From Psychrobacter faecalis (lineage in GTDB: Bacteria > Pseudomonadota > Gammaproteobacteria > Pseudomonadales > Moraxellaceae): a DNA stretch of 64,000 nt. How positions within the stretch are numbered: the first letter of the stretch is position 1; each line of letters begins with the position of its first letter. Below the pieces are notes generated by a model that was not told the DNA's origin, did no database searches, and saw only the letters and a list, made by a program, of their open reading frames with translations. Location: contig NZ_JABAST010000010.1 in NCBI RefSeq assembly GCF_016107575.1, forward strand, positions 1-64,000. The letters are read 5' to 3'. A program made the position numbers and the translations under genes. Shown here piece by piece: positions 4,337 through 33,183 of this stretch.

Positions 4337-5170
4337 TTATCTCCGACCTAGCATCGATGCGGCTGGGAATCCACCAAACGAGAGTGGCTCATGCTCACCA
4401 AATCGCAGCTTGCAATCGCTGAGACAACCGCCGCATTTATCTAGCGCGGGATTATCGGTTGGTTTGCCATCCTCAGTAAACATGGCGGCACCTGTGTAGC
4501 CGCATGATTCGCCGCGATACTTACCTTTAACCGCCCAGTCGCAATACTTAGTAATCGTGCGACTAGGTATCATCTTGCGCTGGGCGGTGAGCGGGGTTGA
4601 TAACTCAAACGCCACTGAGCTGTCTTGGTCGCTTAGCGATTCGTGGGTCTTTTGATTGATGGTCCAGTACTGGTCAGTATATTGCTGACTATCAGCTGTT
4701 GGGTTACCTGCGCCGAAGTTTGCGGCGTCGAGATATTTTGCTAGGACATGGATGACGCGGAGCTCTGCGCCAACAAAGTCACTGTAAAAAGCGCACAACG
4801 CCGTAACTGCGCCATTAATGCCATCGATGTTATTGCCAATGACAAGTGCCGGCGTAGATGGACTGCCATCGCCTCGAATCTCAAGCCCATCGGTTTGAAT
4901 GGCAACCGGAGTGTATTTTTGACCTTGCCAAATGATGTTTCTAAAAAAATCAGTATCTGTAGGACTTTGTGTATAGTCGGTACCAGCTAAGACTGTAGTG
5001 TCTCCCGCTAGTGTTTCAGTACTACCGGCCCACTCAAATAACTTGCGCCAGTCTTCAAAGCTCACATGCCCATGCCATCGCAATATGCCGCCGCCTTGCT
5101 TGGTAGCATCTAATTCATATAGTGTGACAAGCCCTGTGACACTGAGTTTTTGTAGGTCGGATGAAAGCAT
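4337..5170 (-). CDS. Minor tail protein, gpL-like (Fe-S tail tip protein)
   Basis: This 277-residue protein matches the lambda minor tail protein L family: N-terminal beta-rich domain, then a C-terminal domain rich in cysteines (C210, C223, C246, C249, C253). In lambda, four C-terminal cysteines hold an iron-sulfur cluster, and the spacing here (KYCDWA, ESCGY, KCGGCLSDC) suggests the same. It builds the tail tip under gpJ. The DGR and a 218-residue gene are inserted between it and the gpM-like gene, which would be its direct neighbour in lambda. Confidence 0.85.
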   Translation of the reverse strand: MLSSDLQKLSVTGLVTLYELDATKQGGGILRWHGHVSFEDWRKLFEWAGSTETLAGDTTVLAGTDYTQSPTDTDFFRNIIWQGQKYTPVAIQTDGLEIRGDGSPSTPALVIGNNIDGINGAVTALCAFYSDFVGAELRVIHVLAKYLDAANFGAGNPTADSQQYTDQYWTINQKTHESLSDQDSSVAFELSTPLTAQRKMIPSRTITKYCDWAVKGKYRGESCGYTGAAMFTEDGKPTDNPALDKCGGCLSDCKLRFGEHEPLSFGGFPAASMLGRR

Positions 5171-5186
5171 TTTACACCTCTGTTTG

Positions 5187-5843
5187 TTAGAGCGTCAGCG
5201 CTTGCGCCCACATAGCATCTAACTGCTCATCATTTAATCCGAGCAAAGCACTCATGTAAGCAACGCTTTCGCTCTCTCTTACAAAGCTAGTCGCCTCCCT
5301 GTATTCAACTTCGATACGGGCTTTTAGCGCCTCATCTTCGATGCCTGCGATAGCTGTCTCAATAGCTGCAAGCAAGTCGTTTTCGATCAAGACCAGTTTA
5401 AACTGTCTGCGAGTTAGCGCTCGTAGTTTCTTGCTAGTATCATCAGTTAGACCTAATTTGGCCTTTTGCTCACGACCCCATTGTCTACACTCCTCTACAT
5501 AATCTGCATAGACAGCAAAAGAGGGTGATGATGAATTTCGTATCTCTTTGAGTTCGTCAGACAAGCTGTAGCGCTCAGCAATCTTTGCTTTGACGCGATC
5601 ATCGATGAGCTGCACATGCGTTGATTGCGATTTAATTCGCGCTCGCAGCTCGTCAGTCATTACTACTGTTTGTACTGTATCTGCAATCTCATCCGGCTGA
5701 TTGATGGGCAAGTCCGCATCATCAGGCACGCTAACATACGTCACCCCATCGATTGTACATAACTCCACTGATCCCTCCGGAGCGTCCAACTGCTTGGTGG
5801 TGTCTTTGGTGATAAATTTTTGGTAGCTCACAATATAAGCCAT
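5187..5843 (-). CDS. Hypothetical phage protein between the DGR reverse transcriptase and gpL
   Basis: This 218-residue protein is of unrecognised function. It has an acidic N-terminal region (EGSVELCTIDG, VPDDADLPINQP), a helical middle (residues about 65-150) and a C-terminal segment containing RRQFKLVLIENDL, seen in phage tail-fibre-associated hypotheticals. A GGAG lies nine bases before the chosen ATG at 5843. The first 113 bases overlap the 3' end of the reverse transcriptase gene in another frame. By position it could be a tail-tip accessory or a chaperone for the DGR target; this is inference only. Confidence 0.6.
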   Translation of the reverse strand: MAYIVSYQKFITKDTTKQLDAPEGSVELCTIDGVTYVSVPDDADLPINQPDEIADTVQTVVMTDELRARIKSQSTHVQLIDDRVKAKIAERYSLSDELKEIRNSSSPSFAVYADYVEECRQWGREQKAKLGLTDDTSKKLRALTRRQFKLVLIENDLLAAIETAIAGIEDEALKARIEVEYREATSFVRESESVAYMSALLGLNDEQLDAMWAQALTL

Positions 5844-6798
5844 GGTTTTGTTGCTCCGTATAATTTAGTAGATGTTGCAGTGAATGGGTTTTTGAGGCGT
5901 GCGCAAGATGAGATACAACAGATTCCAGTTTATTGGTCCTTACAGCCTTTCTAGTCTTGTATAAGCTGTGCTTCCTAATAAACCTGCCGCTGCGCCAGGT
6001 TCTATAGCCACAGAAATTAACGCCGCGTTTGGTATTGGCTATCGTTGATCGTGATAGGGTCAATTTGAGCTCATGTTCTACAAAATCTGTCAGCAATTCT
6101 CTGTACTTCAGTGCTTGCGCGCGGGTCAAGCCAAACAATAAGAAGTCATCCACATAACGACAATACCCAGCTGCTGGCTTCAGCACTCTAGTGGCGTAGT
6201 GGTCTACAGGATTCATGTATATCAACGCAAACATTTGCGAGAGTAGGTTGCCAATTGGTATGCCTTTGGGTTCGGGATAGTCCGCAAACAACATCATCAA
6301 ATCGACCAATCGCTTATCCTTAATCTTCCTCTCTAATAATTTTCTAAGAGTCGGTCTGTCTATGCTGTAAAAGAACTTCTTTATGTCTAATTGTAGCGTG
6401 TAGGTATTGGGGCCGGCTCTTCTGAGCGCGTCTTGCGTATAGTCGGCAGCCTTGTGTGTGCCAAGCCCAACACGGCAAGCAAATGACTGGTCTATAAAGG
6501 TTTTATCAAATATTGGCATGACTCTTAAGTAGATTGCATATTGCACAACACAATCTCTAAATGCTGGGGCATATATCTCCCGCTTCTTTGGCTCATGTAC
6601 CACAAATCTAAAATAGGGTCTTGGCTTATAGGAGTTGTTTGCCAACTCTTCTTGTAATTCGTTTAGCTCGCGGCCTAGGCTTTTTTCAAACTGAAAACAC
6701 CCACGTCGACCACCTTTGCTTTTCTTTGCGCCCAAATAGCCGTCCCATAATGATTCGGCTGAGACTACGGATTCGTATAAATTACCAATCCTTTTCAT
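5731..6798 (-). CDS. DGR reverse transcriptase
   Basis: This 355-residue reverse transcriptase belongs to the DGR/retron/group II-like lineage. Visible motifs are LDIKKFF (137-143, first catalytic Asp), GIPIGNLLSQ (179-188, matching the DGR-type IGxxxSQ signature) and YVDD (215-218, catalytic centre). There is no maturase or endonuclease domain, and length is close to known DGR enzymes. It copies the template-repeat RNA with errors at adenines, and the cDNA replaces the variable repeat in the target gene. Its start has AAGGA seven bases upstream. It follows avd and the template repeat on minus, and its 3' end overlaps the next gene by 113 bp. Confidence 0.95.
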   Translation of the reverse strand: MKRIGNLYESVVSAESLWDGYLGAKKSKGGRRGCFQFEKSLGRELNELQEELANNSYKPRPYFRFVVHEPKKREIYAPAFRDCVVQYAIYLRVMPIFDKTFIDQSFACRVGLGTHKAADYTQDALRRAGPNTYTLQLDIKKFFYSIDRPTLRKLLERKIKDKRLVDLMMLFADYPEPKGIPIGNLLSQMFALIYMNPVDHYATRVLKPAAGYCRYVDDFLLFGLTRAQALKYRELLTDFVEHELKLTLSRSTIANTKRGVNFCGYRTWRSGRFIRKHSLYKTRKAVRTNKLESVVSHLAHASKTHSLQHLLNYTEQQNHGLYCELPKIYHQRHHQAVGRSGGISGVMYNRWGDVC

Positions 6799-6933
6799 AA
6801 CAATCCTTAAAAAAGAACCTGTCTGACTTTCGCTTGCGCTACTAGAAAGACGGGTTTAAACCGATTTCGCTTAAAGCAGGAAAACGTCTCCCTTGGCACC
6901 AGTCGGCAGCTTGCCGATTTAGGTGATGCCGAG
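6799..6933 (-). ncRNA. Spacer between template repeat and reverse transcriptase (part of DGR RNA)
   Basis: About 135 bases lie between the 3' end of the template repeat and the reverse transcriptase start, with no convincing reading frame. In the Bordetella phage DGR the equivalent segment is part of the structured RNA that binds Avd and the reverse transcriptase and primes cDNA synthesis. The same role is inferred from position; I did not resolve a secondary structure. Confidence 0.5.
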
Positions 6934-7046
6934 TCCGCCCGGACACCGATGTTGTTGTTGCTGTTCGTCCGAGAATTGTTGCAATTGACCATCCAGACAC
7001 CAGCATTCGTGCTGTTGTTCCAGTTGCCGCCCACAATCGGGCACAT
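6934..7046 (-). repeat. DGR template repeat (TR)
   Basis: This 113-base segment aligns without gaps with 7501-7613 (constant offset 567). They differ at 17 positions: 6934, 6950, 6952, 6953, 6956, 6962, 6965, 6977, 6986, 7006, 7007, 7010, 7016, 7018, 7036, 7037 and 7046. All but 7036 are adenines in the minus-strand template, which has about 31 adenines in total. The template is rich in AAC (Asn) codons placed where the target protein varies. It lies between avd and the reverse transcriptase, as is standard for DGRs. A short G/C-only run at 6935-6942 is the IMH*-like end. Confidence 0.95.
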
Positions 7047-7075
7047 ATTAAGACGCCTCCCTTTTTTGGAGCACC

Positions 7076-7459
7076 TTATTGTTTTAGTGATTTAATCCAA
7101 CCGCCGATTATCTTGCCGATCTCATCGATACTTGCTGATATCACAAGATAACGTTTGGCATTTAATTTTTGCACAGACATCTTTTCGGTCTTTGGATGAC
7201 CGAAATAGGACAGCTCGAACGCAAGCCTAACTTGCATTCTGAGCTGCTCATGCTTGATGTCTAAATTGGTAAGCGTCGTCTTTTTGTGATAACGCTTTTG
7301 CGCTTCGACGATGTAGTCATACATATCGTAAGCGGTTTGTCTTATTTTAAGCGCCAAGCCATGCTTCTCATGGCTTGGGAAATGATTAAGATAGATATTT
7401 AAAAGCTTCATCGTTTGAATGAACTTCTTATCTAAATTTGACTCGCTGTCTACTGCCAA
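7076..7459 (-). CDS. avd: DGR accessory variability determinant (Avd)
   Basis: This 127-residue basic, all-helical protein matches the Avd family, a four-helix-bundle pentamer that binds the reverse transcriptase and DGR RNA and is needed for retrohoming. Typical segments are LALKIRQTAYDMYDYIVEA, YHKKTTLTNLD, EQLRMQVRLAFEL and the C-terminal IGKIIGGWIKSL. The start is TTG at 7459, supported by AAGGAG (7466-7471) six bases upstream. The gene starts 25 bases after the target stop codon and ends 29 bases before the template repeat. Confidence 0.93.
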   Translation of the reverse strand: MAVDSESNLDKKFIQTMKLLNIYLNHFPSHEKHGLALKIRQTAYDMYDYIVEAQKRYHKKTTLTNLDIKHEQLRMQVRLAFELSYFGHPKTEKMSVQKLNAKRYLVISASIDEIGKIIGGWIKSLKQ

Positions 7460-7484
7460 CTCAAACTCCTTCGCTATCGCTCAG

Positions 7485-8951
7485 TCAAACAGGGTACAAG
7501 GCCGCCCGGACACCGACGCCGTAGTTGCCGTCCGTCCGAGAATAGTTGCAATAGACCATCCAGACACCAGCAAGCGCGCTGTGGCTCCAGTTGCCGCCCA
7601 CACGCGGGCACAGGTGCTCAATTCGGTTGTCATAAAAACGGTCATTGCCGAATATATTGGTGCCATCTGAGCCGCCAAGTTGCGGTATGCCTGCGCATGA
7701 GGCAGACCAAGCCAGACCACTGTTGGCGCTTGAGAATACCTGTTTGGTTGTAGAGCCGATTGCAAAGTTACGGCTCTCGCCGGTAAGCTCACCATAGCTT
7801 GCGCCAAGCGAGTCATAGCTTGCCGTCATTGCCGCAGTGCCCCAGGCATCGGTCGCAAGCGTTACTCCGCTGGTAAGTGCTGACGCTTTTGCACTGGTTT
7901 TTAATATGTAAAAATTACCGTCTGTTTGCGTCAACCCTAAAGCCACTTCGTACATATTGCCGTTCAGATCCGCAACTCCGCTGTGTTGGCCATTGTGTGT
8001 GGTCTTAGCGAATGGTTTTGCTGACCCTGTTTTGCCCGCTGTTAGGTAGCCGGTCTCTTCATAGATAACGCTCGTGTCGTTTGCGTCGCGCAGTGCGTTG
8101 TTATTGCAGCCTTTAGGGTAATTGGTTACACCAGCCGCATCGTACCAAGCGCATGCCGCCGTGCTCGTTGCTGCTTGGGCATGAGCCATGCTAAGCAACG
8201 ATAGCGCGCGCTGGATAAAGATGGTCGTTGGAAAGAAGCTTGCGCCACGGGTTTTGACAGCATCGATTGATCCGGCTAAGTTATTAGCGGGTGAGCCAGT
8301 TAGTGCGCTGAACGGGGAGTTAGCGGCGGCGGATGATAATGGGATGCCATTTTTGATAGAGCTTGCTTTGCCTGCGTTGTTACTCGCTTGATACTTATCA
8401 ACAAAGAAGCCGTCTTTTAATTGGCCATCGTCATAGAACGCGCGATGGACTGCGTAACCTGCACTTTGTGCCGCTGCGATGCTTGCGAATGCTTGTTTTG
8501 ACTTAACATCGCATGAATTAAGACCGTGAGTTGCATAATTAGGATTGCTTGCATGTCCCCAGCGGTAATAGAACATGGGGACATAGCACATCACCGAGCC
8601 GTCTGTGTATTGATAGTTGCCATAATTACTATGACCCTTGATGCGCGTGCCTTCCATCTCTGACATACCAGGCGGTAGGTTGGTTGTAATGCCAATACCA
8701 AATGATATCGATCCCGCAACGCCAATGTCCTCGAACGTCGGAATGACTGTATCGGTAAACAGCTTTTGTGATATCGCTGTCGTTGTCGATTGTCCAAGCT
8801 CAGAGGTCACTTTAGGTATCAAGGCTTTGACGTCTGTAAATTCAGCTGCTACCGCATCAAAATTGTCGTTAACCTTGCCATTACTGGTCCGTGCGCTGTC
8901 GCCGCCGATGCCTTTGGGCTCAGCACCAAGGTTTATTTTTTGTATTTGCAT
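7485..8951 (-). CDS. DGR target protein: tail-associated FGE/C-type-lectin-fold variable protein
   Basis: This 488-residue protein is probably a receptor-binding tail protein. The N-terminus (GGDSARTSNGKVNDNFDAV) looks like the virion-attachment segment of phage fibre proteins. The C-terminal half has the formylglycine-generating-enzyme/C-type-lectin fold pattern of DGR targets: a GFFVDKYQ entry strand, DLNGNMYEV (328-336; the NGN.wE motif) and a C-terminal GG.W...G...V. The variable repeat encodes about residues 447-484, with variable positions on the expected ligand face (S, H, L, Y, Y, D, G, Y, G where the template encodes mostly Asn). AAGGA lies upstream of the ATG. It sits between gpM-like and avd. 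Confidence 0.93.
   Translation of the reverse strand: MQIQKINLGAEPKGIGGDSARTSNGKVNDNFDAVAAEFTDVKALIPKVTSELGQSTTTAISQKLFTDTVIPTFEDIGVAGSISFGIGITTNLPPGMSEMEGTRIKGHSNYGNYQYTDGSVMCYVPMFYYRWGHASNPNYATHGLNSCDVKSKQAFASIAAAQSAGYAVHRAFYDDGQLKDGFFVDKYQASNNAGKASSIKNGIPLSSAAANSPFSALTGSPANNLAGSIDAVKTRGASFFPTTIFIQRALSLLSMAHAQAATSTAACAWYDAAGVTNYPKGCNNNALRDANDTSVIYEETGYLTAGKTGSAKPFAKTTHNGQHSGVADLNGNMYEVALGLTQTDGNFYILKTSAKASALTSGVTLATDAWGTAAMTASYDSLGASYGELTGESRNFAIGSTTKQVFSSANSGLAWSASCAGIPQLGGSDGTNIFGNDRFYDNRIEHLCPRVGGNWSHSALAGVWMVYCNYSRTDGNYGVGVRAALYPV
7501..7613 (-). repeat. DGR variable repeat (VR)
   Basis: This is the mutated counterpart of the template repeat, at the 3' end of the target gene. It differs from the template at 16 template adenines, replaced by C, G or T, and at one thymine. 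Invariant blocks include the G/C-only run 7500-7509, a candidate initiation-of-mutagenic-homology element. Codon changes turn template Asn codons into Ser, His, Leu, Tyr, Asp and Gly. The stop codon lies just past the repeat, so mutagenesis cannot affect downstream genes. Confidence 0.95.
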
Positions 8952-8959
8952 ACCAATCC

Positions 8960-9298
8960 TTAAGTATTATTAAACTGCTCAAAGTTGAGCGTGATTTGCC
9001 AATGATCGCCTTTGCGCTGCGGTATCGATACACCGGCGCAGGTATATTGTTTGGTGTTGCCGTGCGGGTCGGTCCACAGGAATGGTTTGGCGCCCGCATG
9101 TTCATCGATAAACGCTTCGATGGGCTTGATAACGGTATCAAGTGCGCCAGTCTTAGTGCCTGACCAGTTTTTGGTTGTGTTATTAATGCCAATAGATGAC
9201 AGCTGCGCATAGCCATCACCAAACTGTGTTTTGTTCACGCGATACTGTTTGTCAGCAACCGCGCCCATATCCATCTGCCAAGGAAATGTTTTTATCAT
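8960..9298 (-). CDS. Minor tail protein, gpM-like
   Basis: This protein of about 112 residues matches the lambda minor tail protein M family: MIKTFPW, then QFGDGYAQ, the W..D..G pattern (FLWTDPHG) and a beta-rich C-terminus. I chose the ATG at 9298 because the longer frame to 9322 begins inside a terminator hairpin. It lies just downstream of the tape measure gene as in lambda, and links the tape measure to the tail tip. Confidence 0.85.
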   Translation of the reverse strand: MIKTFPWQMDMGAVADKQYRVNKTQFGDGYAQLSSIGINNTTKNWSGTKTGALDTVIKPIEAFIDEHAGAKPFLWTDPHGNTKQYTCAGVSIPQRKGDHWQITLNFEQFNNT

Positions 9299-9312
9299 AG
9301 GTTTGCCCACTA

Positions 9313-9338
9313 AAAAGCCCACTGAGTAGTGGGCTTTT
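9313..9338. terminator. Hairpin terminator between tape measure and gpM-like genes
   Basis: An 11-bp perfect stem (AAAAGCCCACT / AGTGGGCTTTT) closes a 4-base loop (9324-9327). It has A and T tracts on both sides, so it could work in either direction. On minus it would attenuate transcription from the tape measure gene into the tip and DGR genes. Confidence 0.8.
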
Positions 9339-9358
9339 GGTTGATTGATATAGGTTGA

Positions 9359-12300
9359 TTACCGTTTTGCGTACAATCTATCGAGCGTGCCGTTTGGTCG
9401 GGTCATCTTATTGACTTCGCTGACGACGACAGCTGCTAGTCCTTGTCCGATTTGTTTGCCGTATGCGCTGTTTGATTCGACGTTTGAATTGCCGTCCATT
9501 GATACGGTTACGTTGACGTTGACGTTGATATTAGGTTTGCTGCCTTCGCTATTATCCAAAAAGCGACTTAACTTTTTGTTGTCATCAGCCTTTACTACGC
9601 GCTCATTTTTATCAAGCACCCAAGTGCCTTCGCGCGGTACGGATGCAATACCGTCATGCGCTTGACCAACAGGCATAGCAATTGACTTGATGTTACTAAC
9701 AATCTCAGCGCCCTGCATAACCGCTTGACCGATAATAGGTATGTTTTGCGGGAAGCCAACAGCCATTGCCTTGGCGACAGACTGCTGAATAGCCATTGCA
9801 GACTGCGCAATAGCAAAGCCTTTCTCCACTGCAAACAACGCACGATAGATACCTGATTGCTCCCCAGCAAAAGATTTGGCCATACCTGCCAAATCACCAA
9901 ACAGCGCCTCACCTTGCGTTAGCATGAGATTACGTTTAGCGTCTTGGTAACTTTGCTCGACTGCCATTCTCGCTTCTGACGCTCTTTGCACTTCGTCGGT
10001 ATGCAGCTGCTCAAATTGGCGCACTATCTCCAATCGCTGTTCGTAGTCAGATTGTATTTTACCCAACGGCGTTTCTTGCTCGATACCGCCAAGCATACCT
10101 TTTAGCGCTTCGCTAGATTTTTCTCTATCTTTTCCTAGTATTGCAAAGCGTGCCCTGATAGCGTCAGTCGCTTTCGCGGTCATGCCCAGTTGCTCGTAAG
10201 CCCGCGTTTGCTCTTTAAGCACTTCAAGCAATTCTTCATTGATGCCTTTGTATTTCTCGGTGTGCTCAATATCGTACATGAGCGCAGCAAGCGAGCTGCT
10301 ATTACCAAACAAGGCTTGCTGCTTGATAAGCCCATCAATACTGTCTTGCACTGATCTATTGGCATCAGCAAGCTTCTTAGTTAATTCTAACTGCTCCTTG
10401 GTTTGTGTTAATGCTATCAATTGGCTGGTATCAGCAGCGCCAAACTTGCCGACACTAATATCGTATTTAAGCGCCGCTAGCGCGCTGTCATTGCCAAACA
10501 ATGCAATCTCACGCTTTAGATTTGCAACACCATCTTGTACAGCTTTGACCGCATCGGCTACCATTTTTTGTGCGGCAGACACGACTGCCTTTCTTCCTTT
10601 CTTGATACCAACCGCCATACCTTCAGCAGTCTGCTCACCAACTTTCTTCATGACCCGTGATGGCGAACGAATATCCAGCACGCTCTTAGCTTTAGCAACT
10701 GCGCTTGATGCCATGCTGCCAATAGCTGTAGCAACACCGCTTGCGCCTTGCTTAATGCCATTAATCAAACCGTTGACTATATCTCTACCGACTTGCAGCA
10801 TACGACCGGGCAATTCTCTGAGCGTAGTCACGATGGTGTTTTTGATATTAATAATTGCGCCGCGGGTGTTAGCCACACCTCTATCCCAAGCCGCTTGCAT
10901 AGTCGCAACCGTGTTCAAGACATAGCTTTTTATCTTATTAAACTCAGCGTTAAGCCCGGCACTGATAGCAGCCCAGTTTTTAACGACTAGATAGCCACCG
11001 GCGGCAATCAATGCAATAGCTGCAACCACCGCAAGTATTGGACTGGTTAAGACAGCTAGCGCAGCATTGAAAGTCCAAGTCGCTGCGGCGCCTACGCCCG
11101 CCGCCACTGACCAACTTGCGGTTGCCACAGTCATCACACCTGCTTGCACCGCTGCCGCTGCTGCCTGTACTTTCAATAGTATCAATGGCGCATTTGCTGC
11201 AATCAAAGCCACTGTAAGCGCGCTTACTGCTACGCCTAGTGCAATAAAAGCAGGTTTATTCTCACTAACGACACGCTTTATTTCGTCCCAGTTTTGATAA
11301 ACCAAAGCTCCAGTCGCAAGCAATATGCCAAGCCCTAGTACTGTCAAGCCCATCGTAGTGCCTAATGCAGCGTATGCTAGCTTCAGGCCGTCAACAGTAG
11401 TCTTTGCTGCCGTAAATCCATCAACTGCTAGCTTTAGACCTAACACTGTGCCAATTAATGACCCGCCAATAAGAGTGATTTGCTGTATCAGCTCGGGATT
11501 TGCAGACACCCATGTGCCCACAATTGCGACCATAGGGGTCATCTTTAGCAGCAATTCATTTAATGCAGGTATAAAGGCATCGCCAAGACTTGCGACTACA
11601 CCATCTATATTGTTTTTGATTAGGACCATTTTATTAGCAGACGTTGCGCTGATTTTCTCAAACTCAACATCCATTGAACCAAAATAATCCTTGGTTGTAT
11701 TGACAGTCTCACCAAGCATTTCCCAGTTATTTTCTAGTACGCCGACACTGCCTGCGAGCATCGTTATATCATCGCCAAATTCTTTACCGATGATCAAGGC
11801 GTTCGTGCCGATACGTTTTGACTGCTCTAGCTTATTGATAGCCTCAAGATAAGTAATAATGGCCTGCTTACCATCGGTTGCGACTAGCTTACTAAAATCA
11901 TCAATATTTAACCCCAACTGCTCAAAGCCGATTAATTGAGACTTGGTGGCGTTATCCAGTGTAGAAAATGAAGTTAATAATGAATTGACCGCCGTAGAAG
12001 CAACCTCGGCAGGCTTACCCATGGCAATCAATGCGCCGGTCAAGCCTAACGTTGCGTCCTCTGACAAGCCAAAGACTTTAGCGACACCACCGACACGTTG
12101 CAGTGAATCAATGAGCTGGGCGGCGGTAGCAGGGGTGTTGTTTGATAGCGTATTAATCGCATCGCCCAGACGGTCGATATTTTCAATAGGTATCTGAAAC
12201 ACGTTAGCGATTTTCGCCATGCTATCAGCGGCTTGCTGCGCTGGTATATCAAAAGCAACGCCCATCTTTGCCATAACTTCGGTAAAGTGAACCAAATCTT

Positions 12301-31684: not shown

Positions 31685-32057
31685 TATTCCGCAAATTATT
31701 GACCAGCTTATTGAAGTAATACAAAATGGAGGCGGGTTGATTGACTGGGTACAGGCTGAGCGCTTTGAGCAAATCACTGGTATCAAGCAATCATCGTTAC
31801 GCGGCAAACATGAGATGTGGCCAGAAGGTATTGTCTGGGCTAAGTTTGATGACGGTCGCCTCTATTATAGTATTGCGGGGTATAACAATTGGGCAAGTCA
31901 GCAAGCAGCAAATCGCTGCCCACAGGCGTCACCGACAGAAATGGCACCATCCGTATCTGGTGGATGTGGCACAAAAAGAGACACTGGCAAACGCTTGAAA
32001 AGCTCCCCGCGACAGAACGTGGCTACACCGCCGCGTCTGTTATCAGAAATCGCTTAG
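31677..32057 (+). CDS. Excisionase-like DNA-binding protein
   Basis: This 126-residue protein has a winged-helix excisionase-like domain in its first 73 residues: WVQAERFEQITGIKQSSLRG...WPEGIVWAKFDDGRLYYSIAGYNNWA. The remaining 50 residues are low-complexity and encoded where the gene overlaps the integrase (168 bp). It is positioned to direct excision by the adjacent integrase. Confidence 0.65.
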   Translation: MTNIPQIIDQLIEVIQNGGGLIDWVQAERFEQITGIKQSSLRGKHEMWPEGIVWAKFDDGRLYYSIAGYNNWASQQAANRCPQASPTEMAPSVSGGCGTKRDTGKRLKSSPRQNVATPPRLLSEIA

Positions 32058-33037
32058 CTGAACATGCCAAATGGGGCACACTTACTGACGATATCATCAA
32101 TGAATTGTGCGGTAATGATGATGCCCCAAAAACCACTCCTACCTTTTTAGACTATGCCAGGCTTTATCTAAAGCAAGCAGACGTCAGCAAAGCCACCTTG
32201 CGCGAATACGCAAAATCTCTTGATAGATACTGGATACCGCCCTGGTACCAACGTGAAATCCATACCATTACCGCAAAAGAGGTCCGCACATTGATAGCGG
32301 ACATTATTTGGTCTAGTGAAAAGACACGTAATAATAACCTAATCCCCTTACGCGGCGTTTTTGGCATTGCATTAGATGATAGCGTCATACATACCAACCC
32401 AGTCGATAAAATAAAGAACACTAAGCATCAAACACTACCGCCTGACCCGTTTAGCCGCGATGAAATGGAGCGCCTGCTTACCTGGTTGCATGACAAACAT
32501 GGTAAAGATGAAGCTGTATATTGGTTATATTTTGAATTGGCGTTTTGGACAGGTATGCGCACGGGTGAGCTGCTCGCGCTGACTTGGGATGATATCGATT
32601 GGGACGCGGGACTGATTAAAGTAAGCAAAGTCATGAGTGATGGGGAGCTGGTTAATCGCACCAAGACGGCTGAATATCGTGATGTCTTCTTTAATGCGCG
32701 CAGTGAAGATGCGCTGAAGCGATTAAAACGTATCAAATCACCAGTCAGTGATCGGCTGTTTATGTCGCCGCGATTCATTAATAGTGCTTGGCAAACAGAT
32801 AAGACGCCAAGACGAGCGCTTACCGCCGCGATGAAAGCGACTGGCATACGACATCGAGCTACTTACACGACACGACATACTTTTATAACAAACTGTTTAA
32901 CAGATGGATTGAATATTTACTTTGTGGCCAAACAAACGGGCCATAGCGTGAGAACGCTTGAGACTAGATATGCGCGCTGGATCGACGTGTCGAAAGCACG
33001 TAGTGAGATTGCTAAATTAGATACGGGGAGTAGGTGA
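31889..33037 (+). CDS. int: Phage integrase (tyrosine recombinase)
   Basis: This 382-residue recombinase has an N-terminal arm-binding domain (LPTGVTDRNGTIRIWWMW), a core-binding domain (about 84-180) and a catalytic domain with R224 (TGMRTGE), K259, R329 (YTTRHTF), H352 (TGHSVRTL) and nucleophile Y361 (ETRYARW). The first His of the HxxR box is Tyr, as in many phage integrases. The best start is TTG at 31889 with GGGG upstream. It ends 70 bp from the tRNA-Pro gene, its presumed target. Confidence 0.93.
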   Translation: MGKSASSKSLPTGVTDRNGTIRIWWMWHKKRHWQTLEKLPATERGYTAASVIRNRLAEHAKWGTLTDDIINELCGNDDAPKTTPTFLDYARLYLKQADVSKATLREYAKSLDRYWIPPWYQREIHTITAKEVRTLIADIIWSSEKTRNNNLIPLRGVFGIALDDSVIHTNPVDKIKNTKHQTLPPDPFSRDEMERLLTWLHDKHGKDEAVYWLYFELAFWTGMRTGELLALTWDDIDWDAGLIKVSKVMSDGELVNRTKTAEYRDVFFNARSEDALKRLKRIKSPVSDRLFMSPRFINSAWQTDKTPRRALTAAMKATGIRHRATYTTRHTFITNCLTDGLNIYFVAKQTGHSVRTLETRYARWIDVSKARSEIAKLDTGSR

Positions 33038-33094: not shown

Positions 33095-33106
33095 TATAGT
33101 ATTTCT

Positions 33107-33183
33107 TGGTCGGAACGGCAGGATTTGAACCTGCGACCACTACACCCCCAGTGTAGTGCGCTACCAGACTGCGCTACGCCCCG
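33107..33183 (-). tRNA. tRNA-Pro (anticodon GGG)
   Basis: A 77-nt tRNA folds with acceptor CGGGGCG / CGTTCCG, discriminator A and encoded CCA (33107-33109). The T loop is GGTTCAAATCC and the anticodon loop CTGGGGG sits on a CTACA/TGTAG stem, giving anticodon GGG. The phage integrase abuts its 3' end, so the 3' part is probably the attR core. Confidence 0.95.

Follow-up and report, generated by a model that had tools for sequence, protein, structure and literature searches.

Does a 64,000-nucleotide stretch of Psychrobacter faecalis DNA (contig NZ_JABAST010000010.1; hereafter the window) hold a complete diversity-generating retroelement (DGR), and by which signals would such an element find its target? 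In DGRs the reverse transcriptase (RT) together with Avd copies a template repeat (TR) with errors opposite adenines, and the copy is passed to a variable repeat (VR) in a target gene. The list of open reading frames and a repeat search place the target gene, avd, TR and RT gene in this transcription order on the minus strand at 5731-8951, so that all four parts named in a preliminary description of this DNA have been located as it had them. With a probability of about 0.9, the locus is a complete DGR carried among the tail genes of a Psychrobacter prophage that is temperate and lambda-like; as a phage DGR the cassette is ordinary and complete, and it adds a member to a known class.

The repeat finder, which used no adenine criterion, returned a single long pair of 114 nt, TR at 6932-7045 and VR at 7499-7612, which are 86% identical; the three remaining repeat families in the same listing are of 20-23 nt only. 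The VR was correctly recognized in the preliminary description, and its limits, given there as 7501-7613, have been corrected. TR and VR differ at 16 positions, 15 of which are TR adenines, with adenine accounting for 30 of the 114 TR bases (hypergeometric p = 1e-9), and no additional copies of either repeat were found across the host genome. The last A/C mismatch recurs as a TR end GGACT and a VR end GGCCT in all eight Psychrobacter-type loci aligned, the window included, and is probably a fixed difference between the initiation of mutagenic homing sequences (IMH in the VR, IMH* in the TR) rather than a product of mutagenesis, so that 14 mutagenic mismatches is a fairer count than 15. Fixed IMH*/IMH differences are known for BPP-1 and archaeal DGRs according to the consulted parts of two reports (PMC3240598, PMC4372165). 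The GC-rich end common to the window VR and TR is assigned to this pair of signals by sequence resemblance only; over 51 loci both forms were found in 31, the VR form alone in 5, and neither was found in 15.

The comparison with a close relative, the prophage DGR of Psychrobacter arcticus 273-4 (target Psyc_0449), in which avd is 100%, the RT 93%, and the target 80% identical and which likewise lies between the tail genes M and L, gives the adenine pattern its historical depth. Over 114 sites there are 4 differences between the two TRs and 19 between the two VRs; 15 of these 19 sites are adenine in both TRs, and of the remaining four, three coincide exactly with the non-adenine differences between the two TRs. 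Each VR therefore bears the markers of its own TR, which is the trace that repeated TR-to-VR transfer would be expected to leave. The variation at template adenines that the preliminary description expected among related prophages is accordingly present in this pair. This pattern is a footprint over evolutionary time, and present activity stays a separate claim. The TR contains 18 mutable codons, none of which can turn into a stop and 11 of which are AAC or AAT, and it gives access to about 1e17 protein variants.

The proteins point in the same direction. The best PDB match of the RT is the BPP-1 RT (8ub7; 1.6e-67, with the next match at 5.6e-31), and the protein also matches the general reverse transcriptase family PHROG 1423 (5e-92); by its sequence it is an RT of the DGR type. 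The preliminary description had named an RT grouping outside the DGR clade as an outcome contrary to its reading, and the closest protein proves to be a DGR RT in this PDB comparison, the trees described below having been drawn without non-DGR RTs. Avd is recognized by the bAvd Pfam model (4.3e-18) and by the PHROG Avd family (3.1e-22), and with 79.2 bits it narrowly misses the cut-off of 80 of the NCBIfam model DivGenRetAVD. The modelled target, compared by a single structural aligner, shows an FGE-type C-type-lectin fold over residues of about 95-487, and the VR lies at the gene's 3' end. The protein is 20% identical to TaqVP (5VF4), the variable protein of the DGR in a Thermus aquaticus prophage, and, unlike TaqVP, it has an additional N-terminal part with a helix at residues 20-44 ahead of the matched region. 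Residues 3-35 weakly match the tail fibre family PHROG 12499 (5.5e-4), and neither the target nor orf218, a gene downstream of the RT discussed below, has a Pfam match at E 0.01 or any NCBIfam match. From its position in the tail module and the weak PHROG 12499 match the target is inferred to be a virion tail fibre or receptor-binding protein, the tip of which the cassette probably rewrites. Tail proteins are the most frequent targets of phage DGRs in the consulted part of a metagenomic survey, where 31,007 DGRs are catalogued from metagenomes and their RTs form one clade with adenine bias (PMC8144416).

Several observations weigh against the identification of a complete DGR: the top NCBIfam model of the RT is a group II intron maturase (119.9 bits against a cut-off of 300), direct BLASTP of the window Avd with the BPP-1 Avd gives a match of only 12 residues, and the central fibre region is lost to view behind the end of the contig. 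Elsewhere in the host genome, a second RT (L002, G000:C10:750-1571) is distant, with 24% identity, and was rejected as a part of the window DGR. Table 1 summarizes the features of the cassette.

Table 1. Features of the DGR cassette and its immediate neighbours in the window
Feature	Position	Strand	Evidence and remarks
DGR target gene, tail-fibre-like, 488 aa	7485..8951	-	Open frame, PHROG, structure comparison; VR at C-terminus
Variable repeat (VR)	7499..7612	-	Repeat finder; IMH-like part at the 3' end, GTCCGGGCGGCCT
Candidate target-site hairpin CT-GA-GC-[GATA]-GC-GA-AG	7469..7484	-	Sequence pattern and comparison; weak on its own
avd, 127 aa, TTG start	7076..7459	-	Pfam, PHROG, NCBIfam matches
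Helix P1, 5' strand (13-bp helix closing TR RNA)	7050..7062	-	Comparative alignment
Template repeat (TR), 3' end GGACT (IMH*-like)	6932..7045	-	Repeat finder
Structured RNA of the TR-RT spacer (model R1), helices P2-P5	6799..6936	-	Conserved among relatives; no Rfam match
Helix P1, 3' strand	6878..6890	-	Comparative alignment
DGR reverse transcriptase, 355 aa, GIPIGNLLSQ and YVDD	5731..6798	-	PDB, PHROG, RT tree of relatives
orf218, 218 aa, conserved partner gene	5187..5843	-	113 nt overlap with RT
gpM-like minor tail protein, upstream neighbour	8960..9322	-	Pfam/PHROG
gpL-like minor tail protein, downstream neighbour	4337..5170	-	Pfam/PHROG

The signals that act in cis were approached through relatives gathered by RT, namely the best 80 of 421 IMG/VR loci together with 11 genomes of the order and the loci collected earlier (110 in total). 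A TR/VR detector demanding at least 70% of mismatches at adenines found a pair in 97 of the 110, and the other 13 were left out of later counts; removal of twelve named duplicates and then of loci more than 95% alike downstream of the VR reduced the 97 to 58 non-redundant loci. These and six control phages, BPP-1 included, make up 64 RT rows, of which 52 form the clade on the window's side under midpoint rooting.

In 11 related loci a 13-bp helix closes the TR, and further helices follow it in the spacer. Over 32 chosen pairs 97.7% of the alignment cells are able to pair, 17 pairs are changed on both sides, and none of 500 shuffles scored as high, a result favoured by the derivation of the structure from the same alignment that was used for scoring; slid versions of the alignment drop to 41-55% pairing. 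Of 60 sources searched with the R1 model of the TR-RT spacer, 47 matched at E <= 0.0025, comprising 43 of the 44 clade rows given (L018 was missed) and the further relatives L006, L028, L037, and L064, with three of the 47 (window, L025, and L026) being rows of the model itself; none of the 12 rows searched outside the clade matched. In 42 of the 52 clade rows the closing helix has 13 bp or more, and in 10 of the 12 rows outside it has no more than 9 bp (null mean 8.1). In BPP-1, by contrast, no long helix was found around the TR (best 8 pairs, null mean 8.1) and no R1 match at E up to 1. Rfam gave no match in the TR and spacer region, neither at the gathering score nor at E up to 1. The fold of the single window RNA, which is no better than that of shuffles (z -0.49), speaks against the structure, and it is comparison among relatives that shows a conserved TR-spacer RNA fold.

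Efficient homing in BPP-1 requires a GC-rich hairpin that has a GRNA loop and lies downstream of the VR, and stems of 7-10 bp occur in other phages, as stated in the consulted part of the same report (PMC3240598). No canonical GC-rich hairpin with a 7-10 bp stem was found after the window VR. There is, directly 3' of the target stop codon, a GRNA loop, GATA at 7475-7478, flanked by an inner stem of 2 bp, a tandem G-A/A-G, and an outer stem of 2 bp; whereas the BPP-1 hairpin is contiguous and GC-rich with a GAAA loop, the stem in the window is interrupted by GA. Hairpins of this GA type were first defined by pattern and then re-tested without the GA requirement, the longest stem being taken where there were several loops. 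Among the 58 loci 35 are of the GA type, 10 have contiguous stems 6 bp or longer, and 13 have neither, with chance rates in shuffles of 0.44% and 0.05% per locus for GA-type and contiguous hairpins, respectively; the six control phages are contiguous under a looser rule with one mismatch allowed. Within the clade the numbers are 35 GA, 13 contiguous, and 4 other, and all 52 rows have the GRNA loop and two flanking pairs. The two types are interleaved on the RT tree, where 10 changes are needed, so the hairpin type does not mark a single origin. No description of a GA-interrupted hairpin was found in the consulted parts of the literature on DGR hairpins, cruciforms, and tetraloops.

The partner gene orf218 provides a further view of the cassette. 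Its residues 1-132 belong to a family that lies downstream of target genes whether or not an RT stands between them and that is conserved in phages without a match to any other tail gene of the window (several of these loci are short). Residues 133-218 are missing in many family members and have PHROG matches of their own (14311 and 6034, function not known), and so the gene looks modular. The protein has no match among PDB sequences at E 1. Two scans for the family gave 92 loci, of which 16 are duplicates, 4 are short upstream, 51 have a DGR RT upstream, and 21 have no RT. A target homologue precedes the family gene in 19 of the 21 RT-less loci (in L125 with 691 nt between them); among these 19, six retain avd whole or in part, and L181 retains the 3' end of the RT gene. 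Six loci (L133, L155, L166, L181, L192, and L210) combine a fibre gene, the hairpin, and an avd or RT fragment with no full RT and are apparent scars of DGR deletion. These arrangements are read most simply if avd-TR-RT has been inserted between the gene of a fibre and that of its partner and has been lost by deletion in some cases, and if the hairpin is a part of the DGR.

It may be proposed, tentatively and at rather less than even odds, that the clade uses a second type of target signal, in which a hairpin with tandem sheared G-A pairs, whose 3' arm also serves as the ribosome-binding site or start region of avd, acts together with the 13-bp TR helix, and that the DGR is a removable insert between fibre and partner genes. 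The window hairpin itself weighs against such a proposal, since a DNA energy model gives it -0.8 kcal/mol, a value that shuffled sequences equal (z +0.56); besides, a stretch of L003 has no fold, L026 departs from the hairpin pattern, and the outer stems in the Psychrobacter group have two clear pairs only. The same poor stability speaks for a reading of the element as a conserved translation-initiation region of avd instead of a DNA target structure. This is an unlikely explanation but a live rival, or else a second role, because avd starts 3 nt past the loop in 18 of the 23 resolvable GA-type rows (12 of the 35 being unresolved, and two rows giving implausible negative distances), and the 3' arm in the window continues into AAGGAG, likely the avd ribosome-binding site. 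Contiguous hairpins, however, have the same GRNA loop at the same place with the avd start 16-39 nt past it (11 of 13 resolvable), and stem positions 3-4 are either A-G,G-A (34 rows) or Watson-Crick (14) or pairs with wobble (1) in 49 of the 52 clade rows, the other three showing neither. The inner pairs covary as well (GC/GC, AC/GT, GT/AC), strict hairpins follow the VR in 44 of 52 clade rows and the TR in only 2, and the hairpin is kept in all seven RT-less loci that have a trace of avd or RT but in one of the 12 without such trace, among which L161 and L204 have decayed look-alikes. These points speak against the translation reading.

The two remaining alternatives concern the working state of the cassette and the place of orf218 in it. 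That the DGR has decayed after former activity and is now fixed in this lysogen is very unlikely: in-frame stops are seen in the RT frames of two relatives (two in L007, one in L103), other phages have the loci resembling scars of DGR loss, and the window hairpin is weak, but the target, avd, and RT frames of the window are open, the RT motifs and TR codons are intact, and its VR has diverged from that of P. arcticus at adenines with so few differences between the TRs. The window DGR is probably functional, as far as can be judged from its sequence. It is likewise improbable that orf218 is a new DGR accessory factor. Of 51 loci having both the family gene and the RT gene, 49 show the two overlapping (median about 80 nt, the largest values of 938 and 404 nt possibly reflecting reading on to the next stop), and the 5' part of orf218 falls within the DNA common to P. 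arcticus; yet a target homologue is retained with the family in nearly all RT-less loci, and one cassette of Psychrobacter sp. 72-O-c (G092 C12) consists of target, avd, and RT with no orf218 match at E 1e-6. Because loci keep the fibre gene and the orf218 family without RT, orf218 is most likely a fibre assembly partner rather than a part of the mutator.

Taken together, the proposed course of events would be as follows. The transcript would hold the TR between the strands of the 13-bp helix, followed by the folded spacer, and RT with Avd would copy the TR with errors opposite adenines, the footprint of which is seen at the window locus. The cDNA would then replace the VR at the target 3' end, guided by the GC-rich end of TR and VR and by the hairpin after the stop codon, and residues in the lectin domain of the tail-fibre-like protein would change, so that the progeny may differ in binding.

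The cassette is inserted between gpM-like and gpL-like genes, as the preliminary description had it, with the addition that orf218 separates the RT from gpL. The tail genes M, L, K, and I are supported by Pfam and PHROG, and their order is presumably that of lambda (H, M, [DGR], L, K, I). The prophage, truncated at window position 1 where the contig ends, extends approximately to tRNA-Pro (33107-33183), and an integrase gene (31889-33037) adjoins this tRNA-Pro(GGG). The prophage also has genes for terminase, portal, capsid, protease, primase, and a CI-like repressor, and host genes (gatB, a gatA-kind amidase, mreB, and mreC) lie beyond it. The claims of a lectin-fold target, a tail module, and a Psychrobacter prophage are all supported. 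The likely attachment site is 33106-33133, 28 nt at the tRNA 3' end identical to the P. arcticus prophage region. In 19 kb compared, DNA similarity to that prophage is limited to these 28 nt and to window 5566-9361 (84%), the remaining tail genes being 32-89% identical at the protein level; a likeness limited in this way fits cassette exchange between phages or faster change elsewhere.

RT relatives occur in 3 of 105 Psychrobacter genomes (E <= 1e-30) and in 11 of 390 genomes from an even order-wide draw (E <= 1e-40), the window's own genome included in both. Psychrobacter sp. 72-O-c has a close relative of the window RT and, in all, three relatives of the window DGR; two of its loci (L122 and L123, on contig C12) share at least 18,796 identical bases each at a distance of about 34.8 kb and are either tandem prophages or an assembly artefact. 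Named phages gave 120 records matching the RT, every one below 60% identity, and the best of them, Pseudomonas phage Bise (OR683401; RT 55.8%, Avd 57%, R1 match of 41.7 bits), is a contractile-tail phage with a contiguous hairpin GGGTGC-GGTA-GCACCC in which the orf218 family was not found at E 1e-6. The suggestion of an undescribed system was not sustained, given the large catalogued class and the relatives in P. arcticus 273-4, Psychrobacter sp. 72-O-c, and IMG/VR phages. No paper linking DGRs with Psychrobacter was found in the library searched, and the supplementary tables of DGR catalogues may well contain the window locus or its relative from P. arcticus.

The cassette adds one phage DGR to a genus in which P. 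arcticus has a close relative. What deserves to be followed up is its cis-signals, which it has in common with the other phage DGRs of the clade and which resemble a variant of the BPP-1 type. Should the proposal of the second signal type be true, target recognition and Avd synthesis would share one element. If the cis-signals hold, DGR searches would gain two new handles, the GA-type hairpin and the model of the spacer RNA, the signals would bear on how a target is found without a long GC-rich hairpin, and the natural RT-less loci, some with apparent scars, would serve as controls for the contribution of the DGR.

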